NCBI RefSeq assembly: GCF_964355755.1
Contig: NC_092672.1
Coordinates: forward strand, 6,572,001 to 6,636,000
Reading direction: 5' to 3'
DNA: 64,000 nucleotides
Source of the DNA: Antedon mediterranea
Taxonomy: Eukaryota > Echinodermata > Crinoidea > Comatulida > Antedonidae
This document shows positions 37,890-60,868 of the stretch, in pieces (the stretch's first letter is position 1; each line of letters opens with the position of its first letter). The notes under the pieces are model-generated. The model had not been told where the DNA came from. It ran no database searches and was given only the letters and a program-made list of their open reading frames with translations. Both the position numbers and the translations under genes were made by a program.

Positions 37890-37979
37890 TGTTATTTGTT
37901 CTACAATAAGCGAGAGAGGGCGCTAATAAAAAATTATGGTTGATATCCTATTGTTATGCGTTACAAAATTTTAAAAAGG

Positions 37980-39010
37980 GATGTTGTATATTTTCTATGG
38001 ATTATAGCAATTAGAAACTAATAGTCTTTTCATGCACAATGCAACTTTTAGATAATCGGCTGCATATAGGCCTTATGTATCTTAAAAAATATATTATGTG
38101 TTAGCTCTAATATAACTATTAATGTATACTGGTTGGCATATCAATCTCGATCCTAATATACCGATTTTTGCTTGTGAAGTATCTTTCAATATTCTACTGT
38201 AGGCATAATTATATAATAACTTAATAATTAATTTGTTCATTTTACCAATGAATGGAATAAAAAAAGTTTAACATTTTCAGTATTTATTTAATACAGCTAA
38301 AAGTATTGTAACATTAAAACAACAAGTTCTTCTTTGGGATTTTAAAATTCCAACCTTTTTAAATCCTAAATACAAAAGTATTGACATTATATAACTACAG
38401 TATCACCAATGTTGTCTCTGAAAGACCAGACACTCATTAAACTTTGCTCAGAATACATGGACTCAAGATTGAAATGTACATGAGGAAATAATAAAATTGT
38501 AAAAAGTGTATTAAAAATACAACTTCTAATAATATGGGGACTTTTCTTGATAACACAGTGAAACAAGCTTTTGTTACATACCTACAAATATGAAAGATAA
38601 AAGCACACAAAAGAGCAAAGAAAGAAGCATTTCCTGATTTTCTAAATACCAATGTTGTTTTGTTGAACTGTTTCTCATAATAAAAGATATGTGCAGTGAA
38701 CCTGGTACCTTTTTGCAATACACCTTTATAACAGAAGTTGTAGCAGAATAGCCACACACCAACTGATCGCAAGTAGAAGGTATACACAATAGTTGAATAA
38801 AAATAGTTGAAGGAGGCCAGAAGGTACATTGACTAACACACATCAGACAGGAACACAAGTAGAAGGTTCGCCTAAATATTGCAGTCAACATTTCCAATGT
38901 AAGTAATATAACTTTTGATACATTGGTTCCGATACAATTTTGTATTATAGCACACCTACTGTATGCATATCTTTGCCGTTTGATTGGTTGATTTTGTATT
39001 CGTCACGTGC
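37980..39010 (+). promoter_or_regulatory. TRIM upstream module, copy A (before TRIM 1)
   Basis: A block about 1 kb long that recurs through the array. Landmarks: CATGCACAATGCAACTTTTAG near 38033, TCTCTGAAAGACCAGACACT at 38413, TGTACATGAGGAAATAATAA at 38475, the candidate 5' exon and donor at 38899, and an E-box CACGTG at 39004. Related blocks begin near 42860, 47630, 52360 and 58850. It lies directly before the intact TRIM gene, so it probably contains its promoter; this is inference. Confidence 0.45.
38800..38898 (+). other. Candidate non-coding 5' exon end of TRIM copy 1
   Basis: A sequence ending CAGTCAACATTTCCAAT is followed by a consensus donor GTAAGTAA at 38899. The same exon-donor block recurs upstream of TRIM copy 2 (donor 48196) and in two orphan modules (43787, 53291). 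Paired with the acceptor at 39514 it gives a 616-bp 5'UTR intron. The 5' limit given is arbitrary. Inference from repeated conservation of the donor. Confidence 0.5.
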
Positions 39011-39514
39011 CATGTATTATTTTCTCCAATTTTAACGATTGTAGATACTTGTACTCTAATAATACTTTTGTTCGACAGAGTAAGTTGGTTAATGCGTGAA
39101 ATTGAATACAAGTTTAGATGTACAAATAGCCTAATGAATGTTTTTTAGTTGTGAGTCTCTGAATGACCTAAGCTTCATTCCGCCTCGATATTTCAAATCA
39201 TGAAAATTTTCCTTATCCAACTCAAACACTAAACATTCTTTATTTGTACTGTATATAGTTGTTGATCTATGCATTATTATCGTGTATTTAGTTTGTTTCT
39301 GTAAATTAACAGGGCGCCCTGTGTACATGCCCTTTTATTTATGTCTGTTTCTCTTTCTTTTAGGGAACTATTTTCTTTCTCAAACATTCATATTTTAAAA
39401 CACCTTAAATGTGTTGGTCACGCATCATAAACCCCTTTTCATTGTATTTGAAATTATCTTACATATTACACCGAAAGAAAAAAAAAACATAAAACAATGT
39501 ATTCTATTCCACAG

Positions 39515-41671
39515 ATGTCTGCTGAAACAGTATTGACGTTTTTTGATGAAAAAGATCTGGAATGTTCCATCTGTCTAAAAAGATTCACAGATCCAAAAGC
39601 ACTTGAGTGTCTTCATACTTACTGCCTTAAATGCCTGCAATATTTGATGAGAAAACACGGCAAGATACGATGTCCAAAATGCTGTAAGGCATACACTCTA
39701 AAGAATGATGATTTGAAACATTTGCAGTGCAATGAAACAATACGTTATCTGGTTGAATTTGTTGAGAAGATTGAATCTGAAAAACCAGAAACATGCTCAA
39801 GATGTGAAGATCGACCTCAGCACTATTGTTCTGAATGTGAAATGTATATGTGTAGGCAGTGTATCCAACAGCATAAGACGGAGAACCATTCACTGTACAC
39901 ACTGGATACAGACATAGAAGAACAAGGTCAAGATTTACCAAATTGCCAAAATCACCCTGATAAAAAACTGGAAGATTACTGTCGTACATGTAAACTTACT
40001 GCATGTGAAGATTGTAAACATATTGTCCGTTGTTATAGAAATCAACATAAGGTGATTCCAATGCTGACTGCTCTGAATGAGATTAATCAAACGGTTATTG
40101 AAACTATGAAGACAGCTGAAGAAATTAAGGGAAAACTAAATGAGAGATTAGATGTTATCACTAAAGAAAAATCAGATTCTGAATCTGATTTCTCGTTTAG
40201 CAGAACGGCGATAGAATTTCAAGAGATTACAATCATCAAAAAGGTGAAGCAAGAAACTAAGATAATGATGGCAAATCTTACACATATATATAAAGAAAAA
40301 GGCAACATTATCGATCGTGAAGTTAAAAATATTGAATCAAAGCTGACACAAGTAACCTCATTGATGGACTCAATTAAAAAAACAATGAATAAACCAACAG
40401 AAACAGAAAACCTTGCATCATACCAGACAATTATCAATGCAGTTAGGAATGCCGCTGCAGCAGATGAATTGGATCAATCATTTGCTAAAACAAGAAATAC
40501 ACCAAAGTTTATTCCATCTCAAAAGCTGGTTGACTTGATGAATCATGAAGGTATTGGTAGACTTATCACTGTTGGTGGTGTATACAAGGTTAATAAAGAA
40601 GACGAGAACATTTCAGTCACAAAAGGGCAGCCATTTAGTGTGAGAGTATCAAGCCAAGCAGAGAATGATGTTGGTCCATTAACAGCCACACTAAGCAACT
40701 CATTAGGTGAGAAATCAGCCACTGAAGTAGCACATAAAAAGGGAGAGTACACAGTAACAGGTAGATGCAAGGAAGGAGACTGGCACATGGATATTACTGA
40801 TGGAGATAAGTCACACGTCATCGGTTCACCAGTGAGTATCAAGGTGGAAGCTCTTGGACTTGTAAATACCATAGATAACATATCAGAGTATAAAAAAAAC
40901 GATAAAAGACAAAAAGTGATAGATGTAGTATTAGATACTGATGGATGTATGTTAGTGTCAAGCTGTAACAGTAAAGATCTAATAAAGTTCGATCAATCAG
41001 GTTGCTTTGTTTCTAAGATACAAATACCACAACGTGTCAAAGTCAATCGCATGCATCAATTAGGCAATGGTCACATGGTGTATAGTGATTATGTAGACAA
41101 ATGTGTTGTAATGTGTGATAATCAATATCATGAAATCCAAACCTTTGGTAAAGTATTATTGCAAAAGCCAGATGGAATAACAGTAAACAAAAAGACCAGG
41201 ATGTTATATGTAGCAGACCGTGAATGTCACTGTGTGTTTAAATTCAATATTGATGATGGTAGTCTACTGGGTAAGATAGGTTCTGAAGGTAGTAAACCAG
41301 GTCAAATGAAAACACCAATGGATATTGCTTTAACAAAAGATGGTCATGTGTTTGTTGCTGATTGTGATAATAGCAGAATACAAATGTTTGATGCTAATGA
41401 TAAGTTGATTAAAATCCTAATAGGATATGGTGAAGAAGATGGTAAAGTCTGGGGTCCTCAAGGTATAATCCTAGATATGGATGAGAATATAATAGCATCC
41501 AGTAATCATAAACTACAACTATTTGATCAAAATGGTAAATTCATTAAACGAATAGATAACAAAGATGATTGGTTGGATGTCCCAGCAGGGATTGCTGTAA
41601 TCTCACAAAGACCACGACGAGTTGTAGTGGCAAACCACAGAGCAAACAATGTAAAAATATTTAATTATTAA
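39515..41671 (+). CDS. TRIM protein, RING/B-box/coiled coil/filamin/NHL (array copy 1)
   Basis: Likely cytoplasmic RING E3 ubiquitin ligase of the TRIM2/3/71 architecture. 718 residues from ATG at 39515, one coding exon. An in-frame ATG lies six codons upstream (39497), but a splice acceptor (TTCCACAG) ends exactly before 39515, and copy 2 has the same junction, so I choose 39515. Seen: RING C17-x2-C20-x11-C32-x-H34-x2-C37-x2-C40-x12-C53-x2-C56; B-box 1 about 94-125 (CSRC...HYCSEC...CRQC...H); B-box 2 about 144-185 (CQNH...CRTC...CEDC); coiled coil about 190-310; filamin/Ig-like domain about 335-450 (VGGVYKV to VIGSPVSIKVE); six NHL blades from about 455, ending VKIFNY. NHL propellers of TRIM2/3/71 bind RNA or protein; the target here is unknown. 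This copy has no lesion, and is the best reference for copies 2 and 3. Orthology to a single vertebrate TRIM is not implied; such TRIMs are often lineage-expanded. Confidence 0.9.
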   Translation: MSAETVLTFFDEKDLECSICLKRFTDPKALECLHTYCLKCLQYLMRKHGKIRCPKCCKAYTLKNDDLKHLQCNETIRYLVEFVEKIESEKPETCSRCEDRPQHYCSECEMYMCRQCIQQHKTENHSLYTLDTDIEEQGQDLPNCQNHPDKKLEDYCRTCKLTACEDCKHIVRCYRNQHKVIPMLTALNEINQTVIETMKTAEEIKGKLNERLDVITKEKSDSESDFSFSRTAIEFQEITIIKKVKQETKIMMANLTHIYKEKGNIIDREVKNIESKLTQVTSLMDSIKKTMNKPTETENLASYQTIINAVRNAAAADELDQSFAKTRNTPKFIPSQKLVDLMNHEGIGRLITVGGVYKVNKEDENISVTKGQPFSVRVSSQAENDVGPLTATLSNSLGEKSATEVAHKKGEYTVTGRCKEGDWHMDITDGDKSHVIGSPVSIKVEALGLVNTIDNISEYKKNDKRQKVIDVVLDTDGCMLVSSCNSKDLIKFDQSGCFVSKIQIPQRVKVNRMHQLGNGHMVYSDYVDKCVVMCDNQYHEIQTFGKVLLQKPDGITVNKKTRMLYVADRECHCVFKFNIDDGSLLGKIGSEGSKPGQMKTPMDIALTKDGHVFVADCDNSRIQMFDANDKLIKILIGYGEEDGKVWGPQGIILDMDENIIASSNHKLQLFDQNGKFIKRIDNKDDWLDVPAGIAVISQRPRRVVVANHRANNVKIFNY

Positions 41672-41679
41672 AAATAACT

Positions 41680-42244
41680 ACAAAGCATGAAAACATTTAG
41701 GCATCCAGATAACTGACAAATTTCTGTTAAATGTTCGTAATCAGATCAGTAACAATCACATGAATATTGTTATTAAAGCAAATGTACACAAACTAAAATG
41801 TTACCATTTATATCTTAATTGTTTAAGTTGTGTATTTGAATGTTCTGTTGTTATCTTAATGTTTTTGCATATTGACTTTTATTTAATTATAAAATTAATA
41901 CATTTTTTGAATTTAAGGCGGAGGTGGGGGGGGGGGGGGGTGAGGGGAGAGATACAGTACATTATCAAAGGTTATACAGATAAAATGATACAGTAACGTT
42001 GTGACCTGTAATTTTACAATAGAAGCCCTAATTTGAGAACCCCTAAGAAGACGGGACACCCCTATTAAAGGGATATTTTCCCGCGAAACGACGATTGGGT
42101 AATACTATGGTTTACTGTTTTAATACTATTCAGAGGACTGCTTTTTAAAAGGGAACGTTTGTTGGTTCTTGATGATGTCCCCCAAGGGTTCTCTACTTTA
42201 TTTGTAATGTAATCAATAATAAGATGTTACATAATAATATAATT
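41680..42244. other. 3' flank of TRIM copy 1
   Basis: Shared with the 3' flanks of copies 2 (51480-52130) and 3 (57777-58620). Contains a G-run at 41928-41940 and a GATATTTTCCCGCGAAACGA block repeated at 51952 and, diverged, at 58456. No gene. Confidence 0.5.
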
Positions 42245-42260
42245 ATTGACACTAATAATT

Positions 42261-42385
42261 GAAGTGGAGTTGTGGCTTGGTGGTTATGATGCTTGTCTAC
42301 CACTCCAAGGGTCCTGGGTTCAAGTCCCGTCAAATGTCAGGATTTTTTTCTAAGGACCAAATTACTCCACTCCGAAAGACTTAAT
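42261..42385 (+). mobile_element. SINE with 16-bp target duplication and known empty site
   Basis: Starts GAAGTGGAGTTGTGGCTTGG with box A and box B (GGGTTCAAGTCCC). Flanked by ATTGACACTAATAATT at 42245-42260 and 42386-42401. The duplicated array unit has the same 16-mer once and no SINE (near 52128). Confidence 0.9.
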
Positions 42386-42599
42386 ATTGACACTAATAAT
42401 TTTATATACATGTTACCTAAATCATTTTGTAAATATCTCCAATAACGATTATAATTATTTTGCTTTTTATTATATAGGCCCTATTGACAGAAGAAGACAT
42501 GGTGTTGACACTCTGACATTGTTGTTTAGTCTGTAAATCGCGCTGGTAATAGAAATAAAAACTCATATAGGCCTAACGATAATTATTATATCACTGTAG

Positions 42600-42842
42600 C
42601 ATCCATTAGACAGTGTATACCACGATCGAAAAACACCCCTATTTGGGGCAAATCGTTGAACCTAAATTCGTTTTAATCGTCAATAACTAATTATCGAACT
42701 CAATTTAATTAGTAAAGAGGGTTACATCAGGCGGTTAAAATCAGTACCGAAAGTACGAACCAACTTTATATACATCGAGTAAACATTCTAGAAATAACGC
42801 GCGATTTACTGAATTTTGCCCTTACGTAAATTTATATATAGA
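42600..42842 (-). mobile_element. Helitron 5'-end fragment with empty-site counterpart
   Basis: 243 bp nearly identical to 36188-36431, including the TCTATATATAAATTTACGTA 5' end. The paralogous unit near 52338 runs through the same flanks without it. The 3' hairpin and CTAG are missing. Confidence 0.75.
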
Positions 42843-43990
42843 TTATATTTGTATTAAAGTGAAATAAATGATATCTACAAAAATGAGAAAAGGGATGATC
42901 TAATTTATCATATGTATTATAGCACTAATATTATTAAAGACTCATTAGCCTGTTCATGTACAATGCAACTTTTAGGTTATCGACTACATAGGCCTTATTT
43001 ATCTGCAAAATGTGTTGCTGTAATATAATTATTAGTGTTATGTATCTGAAATATCAGTCTCTATCCTAATTGTTGATTGTTATGTATTTGTCAATATACT
43101 ACTGTAATTACTGATTTGTTTGGTTTACCAATAAATGGAATAACAATGTGTAACATATTTCAGTATTTATTGCTACTGCAACTAATAGTGTATATATTAA
43201 AACGACAAGTTCTTCTTTAGGATTTTAAAATTCCAACCATTTAAAATTCTAAATACAAAAGTATTGATATAATAGATGTTGTCTCTGAAAGACCAGGCAC
43301 TCATTAAACTCTGCTAAGAGTACATTGACTCAAGATTGGAATGTACATGAGGAAATAATAAAATTGTAAAAAGTGTATTGAAAAATATACCTTATGATAT
43401 AGAAACTTTTCTTGATAACACAGTGTAAACCGGCTTTTGTTGCCTATCTACTTCATTAAATATGAAAGAAAATTACGCACAAAAGAGCAAACAAAGAAAG
43501 ATTCACGACCCTGATTTTCTAAATACCAATGTTGTTTTGTTGAACTATTTATCATAATAAAAGATATGTGCAGTGAACCTGGTTCATTTGTGCAATACAC
43601 CTTTATAACAGAAGTTGTATCAGAAAAGCCAACACCTACAAACATCAACTGATCGCAAGTAGAAGGTAGGCCTATACACAATAGTTGAATTAAAATAGTT
43701 GAAGGAGGTCAGAAGGTACATTGACTAACACACATCAGACAGAAACACAAGTAGAAAGTTCGTCTAAGGTCTACATAATTGTCAATGTAAGTACATGAGT
43801 GATACAACTTGTCTACAATAATCATGGTGTTTTACAAATGAGGATTTATACAATGTTGTATTACAGCACAGCTAATGCATGCCTTTGTCATTTGATTGTT
43901 TGATGTTGATGTTTTATCGCTCACGTGCCATGTATTGTTTTCTCTCATTTTAACGATTGAAGTTTTACCTTTTTTCAATTTTCAATTCAA
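42843..43990 (+). promoter_or_regulatory. TRIM upstream module, orphan copy B
   Basis: Close copy of the upstream module, with the TCTCTGAAAGACCAGGCACT block at 43287, donor GTAAGTAC at 43787 and CACGTG at 43922. No TRIM coding exon follows for 5.5 kb; instead there are Helitron-like elements. Nearly identical to copy D at 52360-53500. Confidence 0.5.
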
Positions 43991-44390
43991 TCATGGATAA
44001 AATAAGTGATTCAATTTAGGTTGGCACAGTTGGTTGGTTAATGCATGATTGCGCTGTATTTGACTGAGCATGCTCACCATTTACAATGAATTTGAATACA
44101 AGTTTGGGTGTATTATAAAACAAATCATGAACATTCACCTCCTCTTGTAAATTGAAAGGTTGGTATTAACACATTTTTTTATTTTATCAGGGTTACGATT
44201 GACAAAAAAACCCCCAGACAAATACTGTAGCAAAATATGCACCCAGTAGGAAGAAATAGCAGTGTGGTACCCTGCTGGCATAGTTTTAACCAAACATTCA
44301 TTCAATAGCCTTATTTTTATGCAACAAAGGCTAGTATCCTATACTTCATTTAGTTAACTTGTGTTGATTGAAATACAAATAAAAAGTTAA

Positions 44391-45797
44391 CTAGATTTAA
44401 TTCGTCACTATGACGAATTATAGGTTATATGCATTGATTTAAATAAAGATAATTGATTTTTAAAAGATATATTGATTGATTGATTTTCTCAGAATCTTTA
44501 ATTATTTATAATATATGATAGGACCTTGCTAACGCGAATACAATAGCCGGTATCACAATCCGATCAAAGATCCATATGCGTATAATGTCATAAACCACAT
44601 TTGTTGTTACATAATAATAAAGACATAAGTTACTTTTTATCTAGATTTCATTATAAATCATGTGTATAATCTATACACTAAGAAATAAATTTGAACAAAC
44701 AATACGGATAATAAAAAATTTACTATGCAGTAACCACTTTGGTGCAAATAGATTATTACATACCGCAATGAATTATAATTTTTTACTATGATGACATCTT
44801 TAAAAATGTAAAAAAATTATGCACTGTCAAACTATATACTTTTAAATTTAATATATGAACTTCTTAAGAAAGAAAGTTAATGTTAAGTTTGTTATTTCGG
44901 CCTAAGAAAATGTCATAATTTGTTTGATTGTCGAAATTATTTAAAAAAAATTTAATATGCAATTAATGATGACTTAATCAACTTTTTTTCTCTTAATTTG
45001 ATAATAAATCATACATATGATACATACACTTCAAGAAAATGAAATACAAAATAGGTGTTCCTCTGCATTCTGACGATATATATTATTTTTTTTGGAGGGA
45101 AACCTCCAAATGTTATTACTTTCTGGGTGTTGCCTCTTAATTATTTATATTTAAATTGTTATTTTGTTTACTTTGAAATGATAAGAAATAAATGTTATTA
45201 TGAATAAATTTTAAAATTTAGCATATTTTCACCATTTTGTTAACTTATACGTGCGTAGCCTGTCACTTTTGACGTGCTCATATAACGCAATTTCGAGTTG
45301 AAACGTGAATCAAATATGATGATATTATTAAAGAAAGATTGTAAAACAGAAATCGGCCAAAAAGAGTTCGCATCAACGTTTAACGCGCAGTGCGCGTGCA
45401 AAAATCTGCGCACTCATAGCAATTTTTTAAACGCTTAAAATTGCCTGAAATGTACTCTAATTTCATCGAAAATAAATTTTGACAATTTTGAACATTTTAA
45501 GCGCGCGTACGCAAGCGTTATATGCGCTACGCACGTAATTGTATTGCCATATGATGAAATATGACCTGAAATTTATCAGTACCAAATTTTGTTTAATTGT
45601 GATTCATGCTTGTGAAGATATGATTACAAACGTGATTTCGTTAAATCGCGCGTAGACCGCGTAATTTTTGATTGCGCATCGTGAAAATATAACCACATCG
45701 ATTCCTGGCCATAAGAAATATACTCTGAAAACTTGACTTAGCTAGATGAAACTGATGCCAAGATAATTCACGGACAAAATAGTGCTAAGGAAAGAAT
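44391..45797 (-). mobile_element. Helitron-like element, copy 1
   Basis: Minus-strand 3' end at 44391: hairpin ATTCGTCATAGTGACGAAT, then TAAATCTAG|TT. The other end is near TCTTTCCTTAGCACTATTTT at about 45795. The GC-rich CGCGCGTACGC interior has no coding frame. Contains a private 125-bp insert at about 45085-45210. Copies 2 and 3 share most of its length. Confidence 0.6.
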
Positions 45798-45804
45798 AAA
45801 TAAA

Positions 45805-47213
45805 CTAGATTTAATTCGTCACTATGACGAATTATAGGTTATATGCATTGATTTAAATAAAGATAATTGATTTTTAAAAGATATATTGATTGATTGATTT
45901 TCTCAGAATCTTTAATTATTTATAATAAATGATAGGACCTTGCTAACGCGAACACCATAGCCGGTATCACAATCCGATCAAAGATCCATATGCGTATAAT
46001 GTCATAAACCGCATTTGTTGTTACATAATAATAAAGACATAAAGTAACTTTTTATCTAGATTTCATTATAAATCATGTGTATAATCTATACACTAAGAAA
46101 TAAATTTGAACAAACAATACGGATAATAAAAAAAAAAATCTTATTTCGTTTCCCAAGGTGAGACTCGTACTCGGTACCTTGAATGCTATAGACACGAGCA
46201 CAGCCCATCGAGCCATACACAACTGACTAAAAGTTGGAGAAAAATTCCTCCGTGTATTTACTATGCAGTAACCACTTTGGTGCAGATAGATTATTACATA
46301 CCGTAATGGATTATAATGTTTTACTATGATGACATCTTTAAAAATTGAAAAAAATGATGCACTGTCAAACTATATACTTTTAACTTTAATATATGAACTT
46401 CTTAAGGAAGAAAGTTAATGTTAAGTTTGTTATTTTGGCCTAAGAAAATGTTATAATTTGTTTGATTGTCGAAATTAATTTTGTTAAATTTAATATGCCA
46501 TTAATGATGACTTAATCAACTTTTGTTCTTCTAATTTCATAATAAATCATACATATGATACATACACTTCAAGAAAATTAAATAAAAAATAGGTGTTCCC
46601 GAGCATTCTAACGATATATATTAATTTTAAAATTTAGCATATTTTCACCATTTTGTTAACTTACACGTGCGTAGCCTGTCACTTTTGACGTGCTCGTATA
46701 ACGCTGTTTCGCATTGAAAAGTGAATAAAATATGATGATATTATTAAAGAAAGGTTATACAACAGTAATCGGACAAAAACAGTGCGCATTAACGTTTGAC
46801 GCGCAGTGCACGTGCAAAAATCTGCGCACTCATGGCAATTTTTTAAACGCTTAAAATTGCCTGAAACGTATTCTAATTTCATCGAAAATAAATTCTGACA
46901 ATTTTCAACATTCTAAGCGCGCGTACGCATGCGTTATATGCGCTACGCACGTAATTGTATTGCCATATGATGAAATATGACCTGAAATTTATGAGTACCA
47001 ATTTTTGTTTAAAAGTGATTCATGCTTGTGAAGATATGATTACAAACGTGATTTCGTTAAATCGCGCGTAGACCGCGTAATGTTTGATTGCGCACCCTGA
47101 AAACATAACCACATCGATTCCTGGCCATAAGGAATATACTCTGAAAAATTTACTTAGATAGATGAAACTGATATCAAGATAATTCACGGACAAAATAGTG
47201 CTAAGGAAAGAAT
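45805..47213 (-). mobile_element. Helitron-like element, copy 2 (abuts copy 1)
   Basis: Begins CTAGATTTAATTCGTCACTA directly after the A/T-rich end of copy 1, the same orientation, and carries the tRNA-like insert at 46126. Confidence 0.6.
46126..46258 (-). mobile_element. tRNA-like insert in Helitron-like copy 2
   Basis: Minus strand: box A-like TGGCTCGATGGGCTG, box B-like GAGTACGAGTCTCACC, then a poly(T)-side tail. The insert is also present, slightly shorter, at 54217-54330 and absent from the matching place near 44710. Confidence 0.55.
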
Positions 47214-47400
47214 AAATAAAGAAATAAATAAAGATTCTGACAGAATCAAGAGGTTATATGCATATCATGCATATAACCTAATAAATAAATAAATAAAGAT
47301 TTTGACAGAATCAAGAGGTTATATGCATTAATGCATATAACCTAATAAATAAAGAAATAAATAAAGATTGTGACAGAATCAAGAGGTTATATGCATAGAT
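47214..47400. repeat. Three tandem hairpin units (GATTCTGACAGAATC) with AAATAAAT spacers
   Basis: Each unit has ATAAATAAAGATTCTGACAG-type sequence, a palindromic GATTCTG/CAGAATC stem, then AAGAGGTTATATGCAT. The second array unit has one such unit (55226-55310). The same GGTTATATGCAT follows the hairpin at the Helitron-like 3' ends. Confidence 0.7.
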
Positions 47401-47409
47401 CTGGATGAC

Positions 47410-48195
47410 GGTGCTTTATTTCTATCTAGTTGCTAAGCGTAAATGGCAAACACAAAGCAAGTCAATCAGAAGCCTGGATTTTCCCAATTACAAATTTAGT
47501 TACAAATTGTAATGGTCATGAATTCAAATTAAAGGGCCAAAATATGTCAAAGTTAATTTGTGTAAACATTCACAAACTGTACTGGGTATTTAATAATAAA
47601 AAAAATTATTAAAACAATAATATTATCAAACATATTGTCTCTCGAGGAGGACCTGGCACTCATTCCAAAGTTTTAATATTGTTAACTTAAAATTGAAATG
47701 TACATGAGGAACATCAAAATTATATAAGTGTAGGCCTATTCACTAAAGTTTGAATCAACTTCTCAAAAGGGACTTTTCTTTTGTTAAATTGCAAAGTTAA
47801 TATCTTATGATAACCTAATGTAAACCGACTTTGTTTACTTCTATTTCAAAATTAACAAAAAGGGCAAACAAAGAAGTATTTTAAAAATTTATTTTCTACC
47901 CGGGTTTTCTACATACAAATGTTATATTATCAAGATATGTTTACTTTTCAGTGAACTTGGTACCTTAAATTGTGCAATAGGCCTACACCCTTAACAGCAG
48001 AGAATATAAACTACGCATACACACATTCAACTGATTGCAAGTAGATGGTACACTACACATCTCCAGTCCTAGATGCAAGAACTTGATACAAATATTTGAA
48101 GGACAGAAGGAACATTCAGACAGGAACAAAAGCAAAAGGTTCATCATCTGAATATTTGCAGTCAATACTACGGAAAAAATCTACAACATTTTAAT
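47410..48195 (+). promoter_or_regulatory. TRIM upstream module, copy C (before TRIM 2)
   Basis: Diverged copy of the module: CTCTCGAGGAGGACCTGGCA at 47640, TGTACATGAGGAACAT near 47698, and donor GTAAGAAA at 48196. Paired with the acceptor at 49345 it would give a 1150-bp 5'UTR intron for TRIM copy 2. The first 300 bp are nearly identical to 55318-55634, which runs into TRIM copy 3. Confidence 0.45.
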
Positions 48196-48929
48196 GTAAG
48201 AAATTAACCAATCTTCTTTTTATTCTTTGAAACCTGAAAACTAAACCACATTCAACTAAAATATAATTTGTATATCGTTACAGTGACAACATGAATCGAC
48301 ACTAACCGCGTTGTGGTTTGATAAAAAAAAAACACAAAAACTTCATTTAGTACAGGTGCTTCACAAAACGCATAATGAATAACTACATTTTCATTTAGCT
48401 ATTTAAATGCCTGATAATTTAGCTATTAAAAAGTGTAGTTTAATTACAATCTTTTTAATTAATGATTATAGTAAACATTATATTAGTGTCTGTTCGTGAA
48501 AATACGAAATATTTTACGTGCGTTACTTATTGTCTCTATTAAAGAGAGTGTCAATTCGTGTCGTCACTGCTGACGATTATTTTTGTTGATGTGTGCATTA
48601 TTATAGTGATTGATTTAGATGGTTCGTAATCTTACAGGGGTGTACATATACTTTATGTCGGAATTCTTCCATTTAATAGTTTAATTCATTTATACATTTT
48701 TTAGGGAAACATTTTTCTATTTTCTTTCTCAAACCATCCATACACATCTATAACAAGACAACTTTAGGGTTATGTTTATGTATCGCTTCATCTTTCCAGA
48801 AATGTATTTGTGTCAACAGAGTCCAGGACTAAACAAAAGAAACAAAACACCGAAATGGATGGAAAATGTCATTTATTTATTAAATGACGAAATAACTAAA
48901 TATATAATGTAAAACTAATGTAATAATAA

Positions 48930-49015
48930 TAAAGGGGGCAGCCACCTTATATAAGTAGATTATGGTATTGATATTACATCTAATACCTTACATTACGTGA
49001 AGGCTGCCCCTGTTG
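48930..49015. repeat. Short inverted repeat (GGGGGCAGCC/GGCTGCCCC)
   Basis: An 80-bp stretch with 10-bp inverted ends inside the presumed 5' intron of TRIM copy 2. Possibly a small MITE. Nothing else notable in 48196-49345. Confidence 0.4.
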
Positions 49016-49345
49016 AATATATAGTATTAACAATTAGCATTCACCATTGTTATATATATACGCACCATTAATATATTTGTAAAATAACTGATACTATAAT
49101 ATAAAAGTTATAGGTCTATAGAGAATCGTAATTAACATATCGTAGAATTAATAATACATAAACAAATTGAGATATAATTTATTAATTCCATCATGAAGCG
49201 GTGGAAAGAAGAGGTGGATGGAGGGAACAACAATTTATTGACGTGTTGGTCCGAAGGAAGTCAAAAGGAAAAGGAATGTCCATTACTTTTGGTGAAAAAT
49301 GTTCTTTAATGTTAAATGAATGTATAAATGTATTATATTTTACAG

Positions 49346-51479
49346 ATGTCTGCTGAAACAGTATTGAAGTTGTTTGACAAAAAGAGATCTGGAATGTTCA
49401 ATCTGTCTACAAAGATTCACAGATCCAAAGGCGCTTAACTGTCTTCATACTTACTGTCTAAGATGTTTGCAAGATCTGATGAGAAGACATGGCAAGATAC
49501 GATGCCCAAAATGCCGAGAGACGTACATTCTAAAGAATGATGATTTGAAACATTTGAAGTGCAATGAAACAATACGTTATCTAGTTGAATTTGTTGAGAA
49601 GATTGAATCTGAAAAACCAGAAACATGCTCAAAATGTGGAAATCAACAGCACTATTGCTCTGAATGTGAAATGTATATGTGTCGACAATGCATCCAACAG
49701 CATAAGATGGAGAACCATTCACTGTACACACTAGATACAGAAATAGAAGAACAAGATCAAGATTTACTAAACTGCCAAAATCACCCGGATAAAAAACTGG
49801 AAGATTACTGTCGTACATGTAAACTTACTGCATGTGACGATTGCAAACATATTGTCCGTTGTTATAGAAATAAACATGAGGTGATCCCAATTCAGACAGT
49901 TCTGAATGACATTAATAAAACTGTTACTGAAACTATGAAGACAGCTGAAGAAATTAAAAGAAAACTAAAAGAGAGATTAGATGCTATCACTAAAGAGAGA
50001 TCAGAGTTTGAATCTAATTTGAAGTTAAGCAGAACAGCAATTGAAATTCACGAGAAGACAATTATCAGAAAGGTGAAGGAAGAAACTAAAGCAATGATGG
50101 CAAATCTTACACAGGTTTATAAAGAACAAAGCAAAATTATTGATAATCAAGTTAAAAGTATTGAATCAAAGCTGACACAAGTAAACACGTTGATGGAATC
50201 AATCAAGAAAACAATGAATAAACCAACAGAAACAGAAAACCTTGCATCATACCAGACCACTATCACTACAGTTGGGAATGACGCTGCAGCAGATGAAACA
50301 AGAGTTACACCAAAGTTTATTCCATCTCAAAAGCTGGTTGAGTTGATGAATCATGAAGGTGTTGGTAAACTTATCACTGTTGGTGGTGTATACAAGGTTA
50401 ATAAAGAAGATGAGAACATTTCAGTCACAACAGGGCAGCCATTTAGTGTGAGAATATCAAGTCTAGCAGAGAGTGATGCTGGTCAATTAACAGCCACACT
50501 AAGCAACTCATTAAGTGAGAAATCAGCCACTGAAGTAGGACACAGAAAGAGAGAGTACACAATAACAGGTAGATGCAATTTGGAAGGAGATTGGCACATG
50601 GATATTACTGATGGAGACATGTCACACGTCATAGGTTCACCAGTTAGTATCAAGGTGGAATCTCCTGGACTTGTAAATACCATAGATAACATATCAGAGT
50701 ATAAACAAGATCGTAAAACAGAACAAGTGACAGATGTAGCATTAGATACTGATGGATGTATGTTGGTGTCAAGCTACAGTAAAGATCTAATAAAGTTTGA
50801 CCAATCAGGTTGTTTTATTTCTAGGATGCAAATACCACAAAATGTAAAAGTCAATCGCATGTATCAATTAGGCAATGGCAATGTGGTGTATAGTGACACA
50901 ATAGAGAAATGTGTTTTAATGTGTGATAATCAATATCATGAAATCCGTACCTTTGGTAAAGGAGTATTAAAATATCCAAAGGGAGTAACAGTAAACCAAA
51001 AGACCAAGATGTTATATATAGCAGACAGTGAATGTCACTGTGTGTTTAAATTCAATATTGATGATGGTAGTCTACTGGGTAAGATAGGTTCTGAAGGTAG
51101 TGAAGCAGGTCAAATGAAACAACCACAAGATGTTGCTTTAACAAAAGAGGGTCATGTGATTGTTGCTGATTTTGAAAATAACAGAATACAAATGTTTGAT
51201 GCTAATGATAAGTTAATAAAGATCCTTGTAGTCTATGGTCAAGAAGATGGTAAAGTCTTGGGTCCTCATTGCATAACCATAGATATGGAAGGGAATATAA
51301 TAGTATCCAGTAATCATAAACTACAACTATTTGATCAAAATGGTAAATTCATTAAACGAATAGATAACAAAGATGATTGGTTGGCTGTCCCAGTAGGAAT
51401 TGCTGTAATCTCACAAAGACCAAGAAGAGTTGCAGTGGCAAACCATGGAGCAAACAATGTAAAAATATTTAATTATTAA
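49346..51479 (+). CDS. TRIM protein (array copy 2), N-terminal frameshift
   Basis: Same architecture as copy 1. The homologous start, ATG at 49346 directly after acceptor TTTTACAG, encodes MSAETVLKLFDKK, then a 1-nt insertion in an A-run near 49380 shifts the frame and stops at TAA 49436. The main frame is open from 49366 (just after a TGA) to the stop at 51479: from 49374 it reads LTKRDLECSIC and keeps a full RING, both B-boxes (CSKC...HYCSEC intact), coiled coil, filamin and six NHL blades, about 700 residues with no other lesion. No in-frame ATG precedes the RING. Relative to copies 1 and 3 it lacks about eight residues in the coiled coil-filamin linker. Either a young pseudogene, a gene using a non-AUG or alternatively spliced start, or an assembly error in the A-run; the clean 2.1-kb frame argues against long neutrality. 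Confidence 0.75.
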
Positions 51480-52339
51480 AATAACTATAAAACATGAAAA
51501 TATTTATGCATCCAGATAATTGATAAATTTCTGTTAAATCAGATCAGTAACAATCACATGAATCTCGTTATTAAAGCAAGTGAACACAAACCAAATTTTA
51601 GCATATTAACTTTTATTTAATTGTAAAATTAATTAAAAATACTGTGTATTTTACATTTAACTTTACTTTGGGTATATAAATTGGATGTTTAATATTTCAA
51701 TTTTCAATGTTTTATTTAAATGTACAAAATTATCATCTGTTATGTTTTATCATTGTGCTGTGTATTCTAATGTATTACTTTAAAGGGAGGAGGAAGAAAT
51801 ACATCATCGAAGGTTATACAGATAACATGATACAGTAATGTTGTGACATGTACAGTAACTTGGAATTGTTATTGAATTTACACAGGTTTCTTAAGTACAG
51901 TAGAAGCCCTCATTTGGGACCCCCTAAGAAGACGGGACAACTCTATTAAGGGGATATTTTCCCGCGAAACGACGATTGGGTAATACTATGGTTTACTGTT
52001 TTAATACTATTCAGAAGACTGCTTTTTAAAAGGGAACGTTTGTTGGTTCTTGATGATGTCCACCAAGGGTTCTCTACTGTATTTGTAATGTAATCAATAA
52101 TAAGATTTTACATAATAATATTAATATTGACACTAATAATTGGCTTATATACATGTTACCTAAATAGTTTTGAAATACATCTCCAATAATGATTATAATT
52201 ATTTTGCTTTTTATTATATAATATTAACAGAAGAAGACATGATGTTGACACCCTGACATTGATGTTTAGTATGTAAATCGCGCTGGTAATAAAAATAAAA
52301 ACTCATATAGGCCTAACGATAAATATTATATCACTGTAA

Positions 52340-53500
52340 ATTATATGTATTATATTATATGTATTAAAGTGAAATAAATGATATCTACAAAAATGAGAAA
52401 AGGGATGATCTAATTTATCATATGTATTATAGCACTAATATTATTAAAGACTCATTAGCCTGTTCATGTACAATGCAACTTTTAGGTTATCGACTACATA
52501 GGCCTTATTTATCTGCAAAATGTGTTGCTGTAATATAATTATTAGTGTTATGTATCTGAAATATCAGTCTCTATCCTAATTGTTGATTGTTATGTATTTG
52601 TCAATATACTACTGTAATTACTGATTTGTTTGGTTTACCAATAAATGGAATAACAATGTGTAACATATTTCAGTATTTATTGCTACTGCAACTAATAGTG
52701 TATATTAAAACGATAAGTTCTTCTTTAGGATTTTAAAATTCCAACCATTTTAAATTCTAAATACAAAAGTATTGATATAATAGATGTTGTCTCTGAAAGA
52801 CCAGGAACTCATTAAACTCTGCTCAGAATACACGGACTCAAGATTGAAATGTACATGAGGAAATAATAAAATTGTAAAAAGTGTATTGAAAAATATACCT
52901 TATAATATGGAAACTTTTCTTGATAAAACAGTGTAAACCGGTTTTTGTATCTACTTCATTAAATATGAAAGAAAATTACGCACAAAACAGCAAACAAAGA
53001 AAGATTCACGACCCTGATTTTCTAAATACCAATGTTGTTTTGTTGAACTATTTATCATAATAAAAGATATGTGCAGTAAACCTGGTTCATTTGTGCAATA
53101 CACCTTTATAACAGAAGTTGTATCAGAAAAGCCAACACCTACAAACATCAACTGATCGCAAGTAGAAGGTAGGCCTATACACAATAGTTGAAATTAAAAT
53201 AGTTGAAGGAGGTCAGAAGGTACATTGACTAACACACATCAGACAGAAACACAAGTAGAAAGTTCGTCTAAGGTCTACATAATTGTCAATGTAAGTACAT
53301 GAGTGATACAACTTGTCTACAATAATCATGGTGTTGTACAAATGAGGATTTATACAATGTTGTATTACAGCACAGCTAATGCATGCCTTTGTCATTTGAT
53401 TGTTTGATGTTGATGTTTTATCGCTCACGTGCCATGTATTGTTTTCTCTCATTTTAACGATTGAAGTTTTACCTTTTTTCAATTTTCAATTCAATCATGG
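52340..53500 (+). promoter_or_regulatory. TRIM upstream module, orphan copy D
   Basis: Almost base-for-base copy of module B, with donor GTAAGTAC at 53291 and CACGTG at 53426. The next TRIM coding region (copy 3) begins 2.3 kb downstream after a Helitron-like element and lacks the usual acceptor. Confidence 0.5.
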
Positions 53501-53892
53501 ATAAAATAAGTGATTCAATTTAGGTTGGCACAGTGGGTTGGTTAATGCATGATTGCGCTGTATTTGACTGAGCATGCTCACCATTTACAATGAATTTGAA
53601 TACAAGTTTGGGTGTATTATAAAACAAATCATGAACATTCACCTCCTCTTTTAAATTGAAAGGTTGGTATTAACACATTTTTTATTTTATCAGGGTTACG
53701 ATTGACAAAAAAAACCCAGACAAATACTGTAGCAAAATATGCACCCAGTAGGAAGAAATAGCAGTGTGGTACCCTGCTGGCATAGTTTTAACCAAACATT
53801 CAATCAATAGCCTTATTTTTATGCAACAAAGGCTAGTATCCTATACTTCATTTAGTTAACTTGTGTTGATTGAAATACAAATAAAAAGTTAT

Positions 53893-55229
53893 CTAGATTT
53901 AATTCGTCACTATGACGAATTATAGGTTATATGCATTGATTTAAATAAAGACAATTGATTTTTAAAAGATATATTGATTGATTGATTTTCTCAGAATCTT
54001 TAATTATTTATAATATAATGACAGGACCTTGCTAACGCGAATACAATAGCCGGTATCACAATCCGATCAAAGATCCATATGCGTATAATGTCATAAACCA
54101 CATTTGTTGTTACATAATAATAAAGACATAAGTTACTTTTTATCTAGATTTCATTATAAATCATGTGTATAATCTATACACTAAGAAATAAATTTGAACA
54201 AACAATACGGATAATAAAAAAAAAATCTTATTTCGTTTCCCAAGGTGAGATTCGATCTCGGTACCTTGAATGCCATAGACACGAGCACAGACCAGCGCGC
54301 CATTGTAGAAAAATTCCTCCGTGTATTTACTATGCAGTAACCACTTTGGTGCAAATAGATTATTACATACCGCAATGAATTATAATTTTTTACTATGATG
54401 ACATCTTTAAAAATGTAAAAAAAATGATGCACTGTCAAACTATACACTTTTAACTTTATTATATGAACTTCTTAAGAAAGAAAGTTAATGTTAAGTTTGT
54501 TATTTCGGCCTAAGAAAATGTCATAATTTGTTTGAATGTCGAAATTATTTTTTAAATTTAATATGCAATTAATGATGACTTAATCAACTTTTGTTCCCTT
54601 ACAAAATAGGTGTTCCTCTGCATTCTGACGATATATATTAATTTTAAAATTTAGTATATTTTCACCATTTTGTTAACTTATACGTACGTAGCCTGTCACT
54701 TTTGACGTGCTCATATAACGCAATTTCGAGTTGAAACGTGAATCAAATATGATGGTATTATTAAAGAAAGATTGTAAAACAGTAATCGGCCAAAAAGAGT
54801 GCGCACTAACGTTTAACGCGCAGTGCGCTTGCAAAAATCCGCGCACTCATAGTAATTTTTTAAACGCTTAAAATTGCCTGAAATTTACTCTAATTTCATC
54901 GAAAATAAATTTTGACAATTTTGAACATTTTAAGCGCGCGTACGCAAGCATTATATGCGCTACGCACGTAATTGTATTGCCATATGATGAAATATGACCT
55001 GAAATTTATCAGTACCAAATTTTGTTTAATTGTGATTCATGCTTGTGAAGATATGATTACAAACGTGATTTCGTTAAATCGCGCGTAGACCGCGTAATTT
55101 TTTATTGCGCATCGTGAAAACATAGCCACATCGATTCCTGGCCATAAGGAATATACTCTGAAAAATTGACTTAGTTAGATGAAACTGATATCAAGATAAT
55201 TGACGGACAAATAGTGCTAAGGAAAGAAT
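53893..55229 (-). mobile_element. Helitron-like element, copy 3
   Basis: Single copy at the corresponding place in the second array unit. Its left flank matches copy 1 and its right flank matches copy 2. Confidence 0.6.
54217..54330 (-). mobile_element. tRNA-like insert in Helitron-like copy 3
   Basis: Same insert as at 46126-46258, with box B GAGATCGAATCTCACC on the minus strand. Confidence 0.55.
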
Positions 55230-55616
55230 AAATAAATAAATAAATAAAGAAATAAATAAAGATTGTGACAGAATCAAGAGGTTATATGCATTATATAACC
55301 TAATAATAAATCCATAGACCTGGATGACGGTGCTTTATTTCTATCTAGTTGCTAAGCGTAAATGGCAAACACAAAGCAAGTCAATCAGAAGCCTGGATTT
55401 TCCCAATTACAAATTTAGTTACAAATTGTAATGGTCATGAATTCAAATTAAAGGGCCAAAATATGTCAAAGTTAATTTGTGTAAACATTCACAAACTGTA
55501 CTGGGTATTTAATAATAAAAAAATTTAATAAAACAATAATATTATCAAACATATTGTCTCTCGAGGAGGACCTGGCACTCATTCCAAAGTTTTAATATTG
55601 TTGACTTAAAATTGAA

Positions 55617-57776
55617 ATGTACATGAGGAACATGTTTTGTTTGACAAAAGAGATCTGGGAATGTTCAATCTGTCTACAAAGATTCACAGATCCAAAGGCC
55701 CTTAACTGTCTTCACACTTACTGTCTTAACTGCATGCAAGATTTGATGAGAAGACATGGTAACATACGATGTCCAAAATGCCGTGAAACGTACAATCTAA
55801 AGAATGATGATTTGGAACATTTGAAGTGCAATGAAACAATACGTTATCTAGTTGAATTTGTTGAGAAGATTGAATCTGAAAAACCAGAAACGTGCTCAAA
55901 ATGGGGAAATCAACCTCAGCACTATTGCTCTGAATGTGAAATGTTTATGTGTCGACAATGCATTCGACATCATAATATGTTCCCAACGCTGAAGAACCAC
56001 TCACTGTACACACTAGATACAGACATAAAAGAACAAGATCAAGATTCACTAAACTGCCAAAATCACCCGGATAAAAAACTGGAAGATTACTGTCGTACAT
56101 GTAAACGTACTACATGTGAAGATTGTAAACATATTGTCCGTTGTTATAGAAATAAACATGATGTGATCCCAATGCAGACAGCTCTGAATGAAATTAATAA
56201 AACTGTTACTGAAACTATGAAGACAGCTGAAGACATTAAAAGAAAACTAAAAGAGAGATTAGATGTTATCACCAAAGATAGATCAGAGTTTGAATCTAAT
56301 TTGAAGTTAAGCAGAACAGCGATTGAAATTCACGAGAAGACAATTATCAGAAAGGTGAAAGAAGAAACTAAAGCAATGATGGCAAATCTTACACAGATTT
56401 ATAAAGAACAAAGCAAAATTATTGATAATCAAATTAAAGGTATTGAATCACAGCTGACCCAAGTAAACACGTTGATGGAATCAATCAAGAAAACAATGAA
56501 TAAACCAACAGAAAACCTCGCATCATACCAGACAACTATCACTGTAGTTGAGAATGACGCTGCAGCAGATGAATTGGATAAGTCATTTGCTAAAACAAGA
56601 ATTACACCAAAGTTTATTCCAACTCAAAAGCTGATTGAGTTGATGAATCATAAAGGTGTTGGTAAACTTATCACTGTTGGTGGTGTATACAAGGTTAATA
56701 CAGAAGACGAGAGCATTTCAGTCACAAAAGGGCAGCCATTTAGTGTGAGAGTATCAAGTATAGCAGAGAGTGATGTTGGTCAATTAACAGCCACACTAAG
56801 CAACTCATTAGGTGAGAAATCAGCCACTGAAGTAGCACATAAAAAGGGAGAGTACACAGTAACAGGTAGATGCAATTTGGAAAGAGATTGGCACATGGAT
56901 ATCACTGATGGAGATACGTCACATGTCATAGGTTCACCAGTTAGTATCAAGGTGGAACTTCTTGGACTTGTAAATACTATAGAAAACATATCAGAGTATA
57001 AAGAAGATGATAAAATACAAAAAGTGATAGATGTAGTATTAGATACTGATGGATGTATGTTAGTGTCAAGCTACAGTAAAGATCTAATAAAGTTTGACCA
57101 ATCAGGTTGTTTTGTTTCTAGGATACAAATACCACAAAATGTAAAAGTCAATCGCATGTATCAATTAGGCAATGGCAATGTGGTGTATAGTGACACAATA
57201 GACAAATGTGTTTTAATGTGTGATAATCAATATCATGAAATCCGTACCTTTGGTAAAGGAGTATTAAAATATCCAAAGGGAGTAACAGTAAACCAAAAGA
57301 CCAGGATGTTATATGTAGCAGATCGTGAATGTCACTGTGTGTTTAAATTCAATATTGATGATGGTAGTCTACTGGGTAAGATAGGTTCTGAAGGTAGTAA
57401 ACCAGGTCAAATGAAAACACCAATGGATATTGCTTTAACAAAAGATGGTCATGTGTTTGTTGCTGATTGTGATAATAGCAGAATACAAATGTTTGATGCT
57501 AATGATAAGTTGATTAAAATCCTAATAGGATATGGTGAAGAAGATGGTAAAGTCAGGGGTCCTCAAGGTATAATCCTAGATATGGATGAGAATATAATAG
57601 CATCCAGTAATCATAAACTACAACTATTTGATCAAGATGGTAAATTCATTAAACGAATAGATACCAAAGATGATGGATTGGATGTCCCAGCAGGGATTGC
57701 TGTAATCTCAGAAAGACCACGAAGAGTTGCAGTGGCAAACCACAGAGCAAACAATGTAAAAATATTTAATTATTAA
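55617..57776 (+). CDS. TRIM protein (array copy 3), rebuilt N-terminus and altered B-box 1
   Basis: 719 residues from ATG 55617: RING starting at C16 (CSIC...CLHTYCLNC...CPKC), B-boxes, coiled coil, filamin domain and six NHL blades ending VKIFNY. The normal N-terminus MSAETV and the acceptor before it are absent: sequence identical to that 1.6 kb upstream of copy 2 (47600-47712) runs directly into the RING exon, so the first residues MYMRNMFCLTKEIWE are new. Two small indels (one A fewer, one G more than copy 2) keep the RING in frame. Codon 96 (55902-55904) is TGG where copies 1 and 2 have a B-box 1 zinc-ligand Cys. An insert of about four residues (MFPT region) follows the CIRHHN segment. 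Whether it is transcribed without the usual 5' exon is open; alternative starts at residues 3 and 6 exist. Confidence 0.8.
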   Translation: MYMRNMFCLTKEIWECSICLQRFTDPKALNCLHTYCLNCMQDLMRRHGNIRCPKCRETYNLKNDDLEHLKCNETIRYLVEFVEKIESEKPETCSKWGNQPQHYCSECEMFMCRQCIRHHNMFPTLKNHSLYTLDTDIKEQDQDSLNCQNHPDKKLEDYCRTCKRTTCEDCKHIVRCYRNKHDVIPMQTALNEINKTVTETMKTAEDIKRKLKERLDVITKDRSEFESNLKLSRTAIEIHEKTIIRKVKEETKAMMANLTQIYKEQSKIIDNQIKGIESQLTQVNTLMESIKKTMNKPTENLASYQTTITVVENDAAADELDKSFAKTRITPKFIPTQKLIELMNHKGVGKLITVGGVYKVNTEDESISVTKGQPFSVRVSSIAESDVGQLTATLSNSLGEKSATEVAHKKGEYTVTGRCNLERDWHMDITDGDTSHVIGSPVSIKVELLGLVNTIENISEYKEDDKIQKVIDVVLDTDGCMLVSSYSKDLIKFDQSGCFVSRIQIPQNVKVNRMYQLGNGNVVYSDTIDKCVLMCDNQYHEIRTFGKGVLKYPKGVTVNQKTRMLYVADRECHCVFKFNIDDGSLLGKIGSEGSKPGQMKTPMDIALTKDGHVFVADCDNSRIQMFDANDKLIKILIGYGEEDGKVRGPQGIILDMDENIIASSNHKLQLFDQDGKFIKRIDTKDDGLDVPAGIAVISERPRRVAVANHRANNVKIFNY

Positions 57777-59224
57777 AATAACTACGAAACATAACAACAT
57801 TTATGCATCCAGATAATTGATCAATTTCTGGTATATGTAGAGCAAATAAACACAAACTAAATTGCTATTATTTATGCCTTTAAAATTGTTAAAGTTGTGC
57901 ATTTGTATTGTCTGTTGTTATCTTAATATTTTGGCATATTAACTTGTTTAATTATAACATTAAGTACGATCACCATTTAACTACGTAAGACACATCACGT
58001 TAATAAAGTGTATACAAATGGGATGTTTAATATTTCAATTTTCAATCTTTTATTCTAATGTACAAATTAATAACTTTTATGTTATATTATGTGCTGTGTA
58101 TTCTAATGTTAACATGTGTTGCTTTAATAGTAGTGGGATAGGTTGGGCGGGAGTGATATTTCTTTTCGTACATAAGTTGGGGACCCGTCATGAAACGTCA
58201 CAAAATAAACATGAATATTCATTAGTCATATTGTGGGACGTAAGAATTGAACTAACTACAATTCGCTAATGCAAGCGCTTTCTGTCGAGCCGTCTGTGTA
58301 GTCGATAAACATTATCAAATGTTATACAGATAACATGAAACAGTAACTTTGTGACCTGTAACTTGGAATTATTGATAAATTTACACAGGTTTCTTAATTA
58401 CACTGAACCCATCATTTGGGACCCCCTAATCAAGAAGGGACACCGGTATTAAGGGTATATTTCTCGCGAAACGACAGAGGGGGGAATAATATGGTTTATT
58501 ATTTTAACTATTCAGAGGACACCTCTTTGAAGGTGTCCCCAAGGGTTGCCTACTGCATTTGTAGTGTAATCAATAATAAGAAGTTACATAATAATATTAA
58601 TATTGACACGAGTATAATTGCCTTATATTCATGTTACTTGAATCATTTTGTAAATACATCTTCATGGTGGTGATGGTTATAATTGTTTTACTTATTATAT
58701 AATTTTAACAGAAAAAGGCATGGTGCTGACAATCTACACTGATGTTTAGTCTGTGAATTGCGCTGGTAACAGAAATAAAACTCGTATAGGCATAATAATA
58801 AATATTATAATATTATCACTGTAAATTAACAATTCTGTTGCAGTTATGTATTAAAGTGAAATAAATGATATTTCCAAAAATAACAAAAGGGATGATCTAT
58901 TTTATAATGTATTATAGCACTAATATTGTTAGAAACAAAACAACCTGTTCATGTACAATGCAACTTTTAGATTTTTACACTACATAATATGCCTTAGTTA
59001 TCTGCAGCATTATATTATGTATTAGCTGTACTATAATTACTAGTGTATCATGAGTATTTATGTAACATATCGGTCTCTATTCTAATATACTGATTTTTGC
59101 TTTTTAAGTTTCCAATATAGGCCTACTACTGTGTGTGCTGTATTACCAAATATTCATTTGATACGGAAATAGATAGTATGTGGAAATACAGCACTAGAAA
59201 TCGGGTGTTGATTTCGGTCACTTA
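57777..59224. other. 3' flank of TRIM copy 3 and truncated module E
   Basis: Diverged copy of the TRIM 3' flank, a degenerate tRNA-like patch (58225-58290, minus strand), then the first part of a fifth upstream module (58850-59110, with TGTTCATGTACAATGCAACT) cut off by the LINE at 59225. No gene. Confidence 0.5.
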
Positions 59225-60690: not shown

Positions 60691-60868
60691 CCTAATTGGA
60701 AATCAACAATTTGCACATAGTGTGAACACATGAAAAATTTTGTCTATTTACTAGTAGGCCTATTTGGAAATCAACAATTTGCACATAGTGTGAACACATG
60801 ACAAATTTTGTGTATTTACTAGTAGGCCTATTTGGAAATCAACAGTTTGCACATAGTGTGAAAACATG
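60685..60868. repeat. 68-bp tandem repeat, about 2.7 units
   Basis: Units start at 60685, 60753 and 60821, each beginning AGTAGGCCTA, with few mismatches. Abuts the truncated 5' end of the LINE. Confidence 0.85.

Follow-up and report, generated by a model that had tools for sequence, protein, structure and literature searches.

Organization of the three-gene array

The window, by which we mean the whole 64-kb stretch analysed (C3:6572001–6636000 in a 354 Mb assembly), contains three open reading frames of 739, 703, and 723 codons on the plus strand (39452–41671, 49368–51479, and 55605–57776). They form an array on one 39 Mb contig, and all three have Pfam matches to RING, B-box, and NHL domains. 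No TRIM coding remnants outside the three genes and no Rfam match were found in the window. The features of the array are as follows.

37962–39044 (+): promoter/exon-1 module P of gene 1, 75% identical to 42876–43962 and 52386–53466
38761–38898 (+): untranslated 5' exon of gene 1, with a GTAAGT donor at 38899 and an approximate 5' limit; a block shared with C2 paralogs and two orphan copies
39515–41671 (+): gene 1 (w1), 718 aa, with RING, two B-boxes, putative coiled coil, filamin-like domain, and six-bladed NHL; from the open reading frame, Pfam, and PDB matches to Thin, TRIM71, and TRIM2/3
40856–41668 (+): NHL propeller of gene 1, residues 448–718, holding most of the positively selected top-face codons
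41199–41615 (+): stretch of gene 1 in NHL blades 3b–6, identical in gene 3 at 37 distinguishing sites (gene 3 counterpart ~57304–57720)
42826–47714 (+): spacer copy A, with a second P module, an internal tandem duplication (44377–45848 / 45791–47263), and an upstream element (47388–47714); much of it ~98% identical to copy B
43650–43786 (+): orphan untranslated exon with an intact GTAAGT donor at 43787, in a distal promoter module upstream of gene 2
48000–48195 (+): proximal untranslated exon of gene 2, with an approximate start and the donor GTAAGA at 48196
49346–51479 (+): gene 2 (w2), with the canonical ATG at 49346, a 1-base insertion in the A-run 49379–49383 before the RING, and an open downstream frame (49368–51479)
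52336–55633 (+): spacer copy B, from self-comparison, with an orphan exon at ~53150–53290 and an element at 55307–55633
55617–57776 (+): gene 3 (w3), a conversion mosaic in which the upstream element is fused directly into the coding exon

Genes of this family consist of an untranslated exon 1, followed by a GTAAG donor, and of a coding exon in which the ATG comes immediately after the acceptor. Gene 1 keeps this whole plan, with an intron at 38899–39514 and the acceptor CACAG immediately before the ATG, and judged from its sequence it looks to be the only intact gene of the array. A preliminary description had recognized three TRIM genes with a single coding exon each. This holds for gene 1, with its untranslated 5' exon and acceptor; it is open to doubt in genes 2 and 3, where the damage to the 5' ends had been missed, as had the mosaic structure of gene 3.

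In gene 2, the extra base of the A-run is absent from those paralogs whose start can be aligned. A TGA at 49365–49367, downstream of the acceptor, lies in the productive frame, so that initiation farther upstream could not restore the RING. Gene 3 has lost the proximal exon 1, the acceptor, and the canonical ATG through the fusion and has new in-frame ATGs at 55617, 55623, and 55632; in its B-box1, Cys97 (gene 1 numbering) is replaced by Trp. Genes 2 and 3 may not make normal TRIM proteins.

The RING is matched by PF13445/PF00097 in all three frames, in gene 2 downstream of the frameshift, and PF00643 matches two B-box stretches in each frame. After the B-boxes, where a coiled coil would lie, long helices are predicted with low confidence (residues 183–224 and 230–290). 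The filamin domain of gene 1 lies below the Pfam threshold; PF00630 is matched in 13 of 21 family members, and the family profile matches filamin A (profile positions 382–447, E 4e-12). The NHL assignment is based on the Pfam match and on Foldseek matches to the NHL domains of TRIM2/3/71. With both a filamin-type domain and a six-bladed propeller, the proteins group with the filamin-bearing TRIM-NHL class (TRIM2/3/45/56/71). An AlphaFold model built from three sequences has a mean pLDDT of 48 and is poor outside the propeller; its coordinates were not used, and structural registers were taken from sequence alignment.

A large family in multiple clusters

Five protein searches, merged by position, identified at least 163 related loci, spread over 11 chromosomes. 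Of these, 132 are grouped in 21 clusters, each with three or more loci. All counts are minimum values, and broken copies are among the loci counted. Stops are present in several members. The proposal that the array belongs to a lineage-specific TRIM expansion is borne out. The three genes form a clade (support 99) whose sister is the eight-gene cluster at C2:37.2 (support 99), and the copies on C4 fall outside both.

Modules around the genes are common to C2 and C3, the trio sharing promoter modules with C2, which points to DNA-level copying between chromosomes. Parts of the P module of gene 1 recur on C2 and C4, and only in the neighbourhood of family genes. A retrocopy origin of the intronless copies is disfavoured, as the untranslated exon, its donor, and the upstream modules are common to clusters. 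Three genes of the C2:37.2 cluster (L003, L007, and L010) have both a distal and a proximal copy of P with the untranslated first exon upstream, an arrangement that suggests the use of dual promoters or of alternative first exons. Both spacers of the array also contain additional copies of the first exon, each with its donor intact.

Some members depart from the common domain order. In the clusters at C7:26.53–26.67 and 27.33–27.39 Mb, matches skip query residues ~63–120 and 325–419, and the open reading frames have 500–625 codons; from these alignments, they are apparently TRIM-NHL genes without B-box1 and filamin. Five single-exon relatives (L047, L048, L056, L061, and L062, on C5, C3:26.3, C10, and C9) start at the second B-box and have no RING, making them possible non-ligase or decoy members.

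Positive selection in the filamin–NHL half

The RING-to-coiled-coil half is conserved, with omega values of 0.27–0.37 in four cluster sets. The ratio for RING and B-box is 0.19–0.39 in all nine clusters examined, and that of filamin or NHL is usually higher. In the young C3:31.9 cluster, pairwise Ka/Ks, for which no tree is needed, reaches 2.56 in filamin and 1.85 in NHL, with 0.19 in RING and B-box.

Codon site models were purpose-written, checked by simulation, and compared as M1a–M2a and M8a–M8. For the filamin–NHL half, the respective 2ΔlnL values are 95 and 94 in C3:31.9, 61 and 53 in C1:4.0, and 143 and 149 in C9+C3:30.4; C2 (97 and 96) and C2+window (123 and 130) are overlapping sets and not independent. 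In null simulations of the C2 set, 14 each, the maximum 2ΔlnL was 6.9 without conversion and 12.7 with six conversion events. The N-terminal halves give values of 0–18, near the range of the conversion simulations, and for this reason we do not claim these signals as selection.

Selected codons lie in the contact registers of the NHL face

In LIN-41, RNA is contacted by the residues immediately flanking the blade proline on both sides and by those one or two after the blade aspartate (PMC5908797). The zebrafish contacts are Arg564, Arg581, Ser582, Arg611, Lys628, Asp629, Tyr658, Trp660, Arg676, Arg707, Phe722, Arg752, and Arg770, with Cys563, one residue earlier, as a further contact (PMC5908797). 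Checked against the aligned human TRIM71 chain, these registers comprise 24 positions. NHL codons with a posterior above 0.95 were taken as selected.

Selected codons fall in the contact registers in 8 of 9 cases in C1 (p 4e-9), 12 of 20 in C9+C3:30.4 (p 8e-10), 10 of 16 in C3:31.9 (p 2e-8), and 5 of 12 in C2+window (p 1.5e-3), with 0.7–1.8 expected by chance across the four sets; these p values are somewhat optimistic, since the four register classes, each a published contact class, were put together with the selected sites already known. The recurrence of register sites in separate clusters is unaffected by this grouping. Many of the remaining selected codons are one or two residues off the registers (466, 512, 620, and 646).

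Disjoint pairs of genes show a higher ratio of replacement to silent change at the contact registers than elsewhere in the propeller (odds ratio 2.7, p 1.4e-9), with a pooled register N/S of 1.18; replacement change significantly exceeds the neutral expectation only in the C-terminal half of C3:31.9 (p 2.5e-3). Within the trio alone the signal is weak: the contact ratio between genes 2 and 3 is 1.58 (12 N, 2 S), and the comparison of C-terminal and N-terminal halves gives p 0.19.

The conserved basic and aromatic RNA-contact set of LIN-41/TRIM71 is absent. The registers are hypervariable and not enriched in basic residues, Lys and Arg accounting for 14% against 12% in the remaining propeller positions, aromatics for 16% against 7%, and His for 8% against 2%. 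A face that is not basic and is rich in aromatics and His leans towards varied, perhaps protein, ligands. RNA may also be a ligand of the face.

Gene conversion and the top face of gene 3

Genes 1 and 2 differ at 224 sites informative for gene 3, and the parental assignments of gene 3 at these sites fall into 52 runs against 101 expected (runs test, p 5e-5). Gene 3 is gene-1-like at 37 consecutive distinguishing sites in residues 562–701, beside gene-2-like residues 507–559. An independent permutation test detects a gene 1–gene 3 conversion tract at 41219–41449 (p 5e-4). Among the contact-register positions that separate the parents, gene 3 follows gene 2 at all five lying between residues 485 and 553; it follows gene 1 at the two before 485 and again at all eight starting from residue 569. 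From this parental switch, a new top face appears to have been assembled by conversion.

A candidate recognition repertoire

The family, its clusters, the gene conversion, and the selection with its location are established directly here. On our reading, a conserved RING half combined with a diversifying binding face is the pattern of a recognition-type TRIM. We infer, with a probability of about two in three, that the family is a germline-encoded recognition repertoire of TRIM-NHL E3 ligases with a top face diversified by selection, the immune role, ligase activity, and ligand being putative. The trio would be one small, partly decaying outpost of this large family. The RING/B-box/coiled-coil half would be kept as a module for ubiquitin transfer and assembly, and the NHL propeller would serve as the binding module, in which, once genes have been duplicated in tandem, recurrent positive selection diversifies the residues ringing the top face. 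Stretches of the face would be recombined through gene conversion, as in the gene-2-like and gene-1-like blades of gene 3; conversion would also homogenize promoter-bearing spacers and leave damaged copies. The likely role would be to recognize fast-changing non-self or conflict molecules, such as pathogen protein or RNA, followed by ubiquitylation. The immune function guessed at in the preliminary description gains indirect support from the selection.

A more far-reaching version, which we put forward tentatively, is an anticipatory-style repertoire of more than 160 NHL TRIM ligases, in which tandem duplication, blade-level conversion, and selection at ~24 top-face positions might generate many specificities, perhaps towards foreign RNA in addition to protein.

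The same selection pattern could also arise from reproductive or transposon conflict. The repertoire would then recognize transposon, germline-conflict, or gamete molecules, and its change would be driven by reproduction or genome defence. The selected positions correspond to the LIN-41 RNA-contact registers (PMC5908797), and many TRIM-NHL proteins regulate RNA in the germline (PMC9070667, PMC5908797), but the composition of the face, not basic overall and enriched in aromatics and His, argues against this alternative, which we consider rather unlikely.

An improbable explanation is ordinary birth-and-death evolution, with drift under relaxed constraint and an apparent positive selection that is a by-product of conversion and pseudogenisation. 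The frameshift of gene 2, the damage of gene 3, the stops elsewhere, the detected conversion, and an overall Ka/Ks of ~0.5 are compatible with it. However, the RING-to-coiled-coil halves are conserved, pairwise Ka/Ks exceeds 1 in the C-terminal half of C3:31.9, and the test statistics lie far above the conversion simulations. Furthermore, the selected sites are not scattered, but occupy corresponding registers in different blades, and do so in independent clusters. The array by itself is a case of ordinary birth-and-death evolution with conversion; the interest lies in the family-wide diversification of the NHL face.

Relation to known TRIM proteins

TRIM2/TRIM3 and Thin are few-copy genes. 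Their NHL folds (PDB 7QRV, 7QRW, and 6D69) are the closest solved by structure and among the closest by sequence; they are ~23% identical to the array protein in structural alignment, and orthology is not supported. TRIM71/LIN-41 (PDB 6FPT/6FQ3; PMC5908797) shares the order RING, B-boxes, coiled coil (here putative), filamin, NHL, as well as the fold and the top-face registers. In contrast, its contacts are a conserved basic RNA-binding set (PMC5908797), while here these positions are the most variable and not basic.

The closest parallel is found in the finTRIMs, a large lineage-specific TRIM family in multi-chromosome clusters with near-identical RING/B-box regions (PMC2657112). In the finTRIM B30.2 domain, the selected positions coincide with the recognition motif of TRIM5alpha, so that in both families selection acts at binding-domain positions matching a known recognition site (PMC2657112). 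The binding domain differs, being B30.2 there and filamin plus NHL propeller here. TRIM5alpha likewise combines a conserved ligase half with a selected binding surface (PMC2657112 and general knowledge), but has a SPRY/B30.2 domain and few copies. Recognition followed by ubiquitylation has been proposed for finTRIMs and shown for TRIM5alpha, and would here involve a different binding domain. The best reading of these comparisons is that the family may be the NHL counterpart of the teleost finTRIMs.

Marin 2012 (PMC3503706) places NHL-bearing TRIMs, as here, in TRIM subfamily C and reports rapid tandem TRIM expansions in animals with a suggested defence role; the sections consulted give no account of NHL-face diversification in tandem arrays. 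Nor was a description of it found in PMC papers, to which the search was confined. NHL TRIMs have mostly been described as conserved regulators of RNA in development, while here the top face is the fastest-evolving part in several independent clusters. This points to the recruitment of a second fold of propeller or sheet type, alongside B30.2, as a recognition surface of TRIM proteins. The selected registers directly predict the residues that set specificity, and the family is a testable candidate for an unrecognized invertebrate recognition repertoire.

History of the spacers

Self-comparison of the window confirms the near-identical spacer recurrence noted previously: 42826–44718 and 52336–54221 are 97.9% identical over 1897 columns, and 47388–47687 and 55307–55606 are 98% identical. 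The repeats are direct, with 9.5 kb spacing. The flanking pieces are less similar (41958–42261 versus 51800–52142, 83%; 42381–42598 versus 52121–52338, 91%). Along the pair, identity is 83–95% in the 3' flanks, 96–100% in a block from ~42.9 to 44.7 kb, 89–95% in the next stretch, and 97–98% in the last 400 bases, and a 1.4 kb internal tandem duplication is present in copy A only. Identity near 98% is confined to the outside of the genes, the coding exons being mutually only ~88% identical. The spacers are not a dispersed transposon, as all occurrences of the modules tested are close to family genes, on C2, C3, and C4.

Ks is 0.179 between genes 1 and 2, 0.176 between genes 1 and 3, and 0.101 between genes 2 and 3. 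Gene 2 is as close to genes of the C2 cluster (Ks ~0.15–0.18) as to gene 1. With spacers differing by ~2% and genes at Ks 0.10–0.18, the spacers were homogenized after the genes had diverged, and the latest event, as read from the alignments, is copying or conversion of the promoter-bearing spacer, not of the genes. Growth of the array by recent tandem duplication of gene, promoter, and 3' flank as whole units, as initially proposed from the spaced direct repeats and their 98% identity, is therefore very improbable: the units are not equally young, which refutes it unless the genes were later replaced. Scarcely credible is an assembly artefact, with haplotigs joined as a false tandem of a single locus or a consensus error behind the gene 2 frameshift, a one-base lesion in a short A-run that could still be an error, because the 10–18% silent-site divergence of the genes is well above usual heterozygosity and the spacer copies each join different genes on one contig.

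Several further elements lie in the window. A 96% direct repeat (36188–36432 versus 42600–42843) connects spacer A to the sequence preceding the array, and 34981–35257 and 35806–36087 form a near-identical direct repeat (94%). On the other side, a non-LTR-like reverse transcriptase frame of 475 codons (59278–60702, minus strand; PF00078, E 1e-32) adjoins the truncated last promoter module of the array. Farther upstream are a WWE-domain open reading frame (22884–23795, plus strand; PF02825, E 1e-15) and an axonemal dynein heavy chain exon with a best match to DNAH10 (17543–18373, minus strand).
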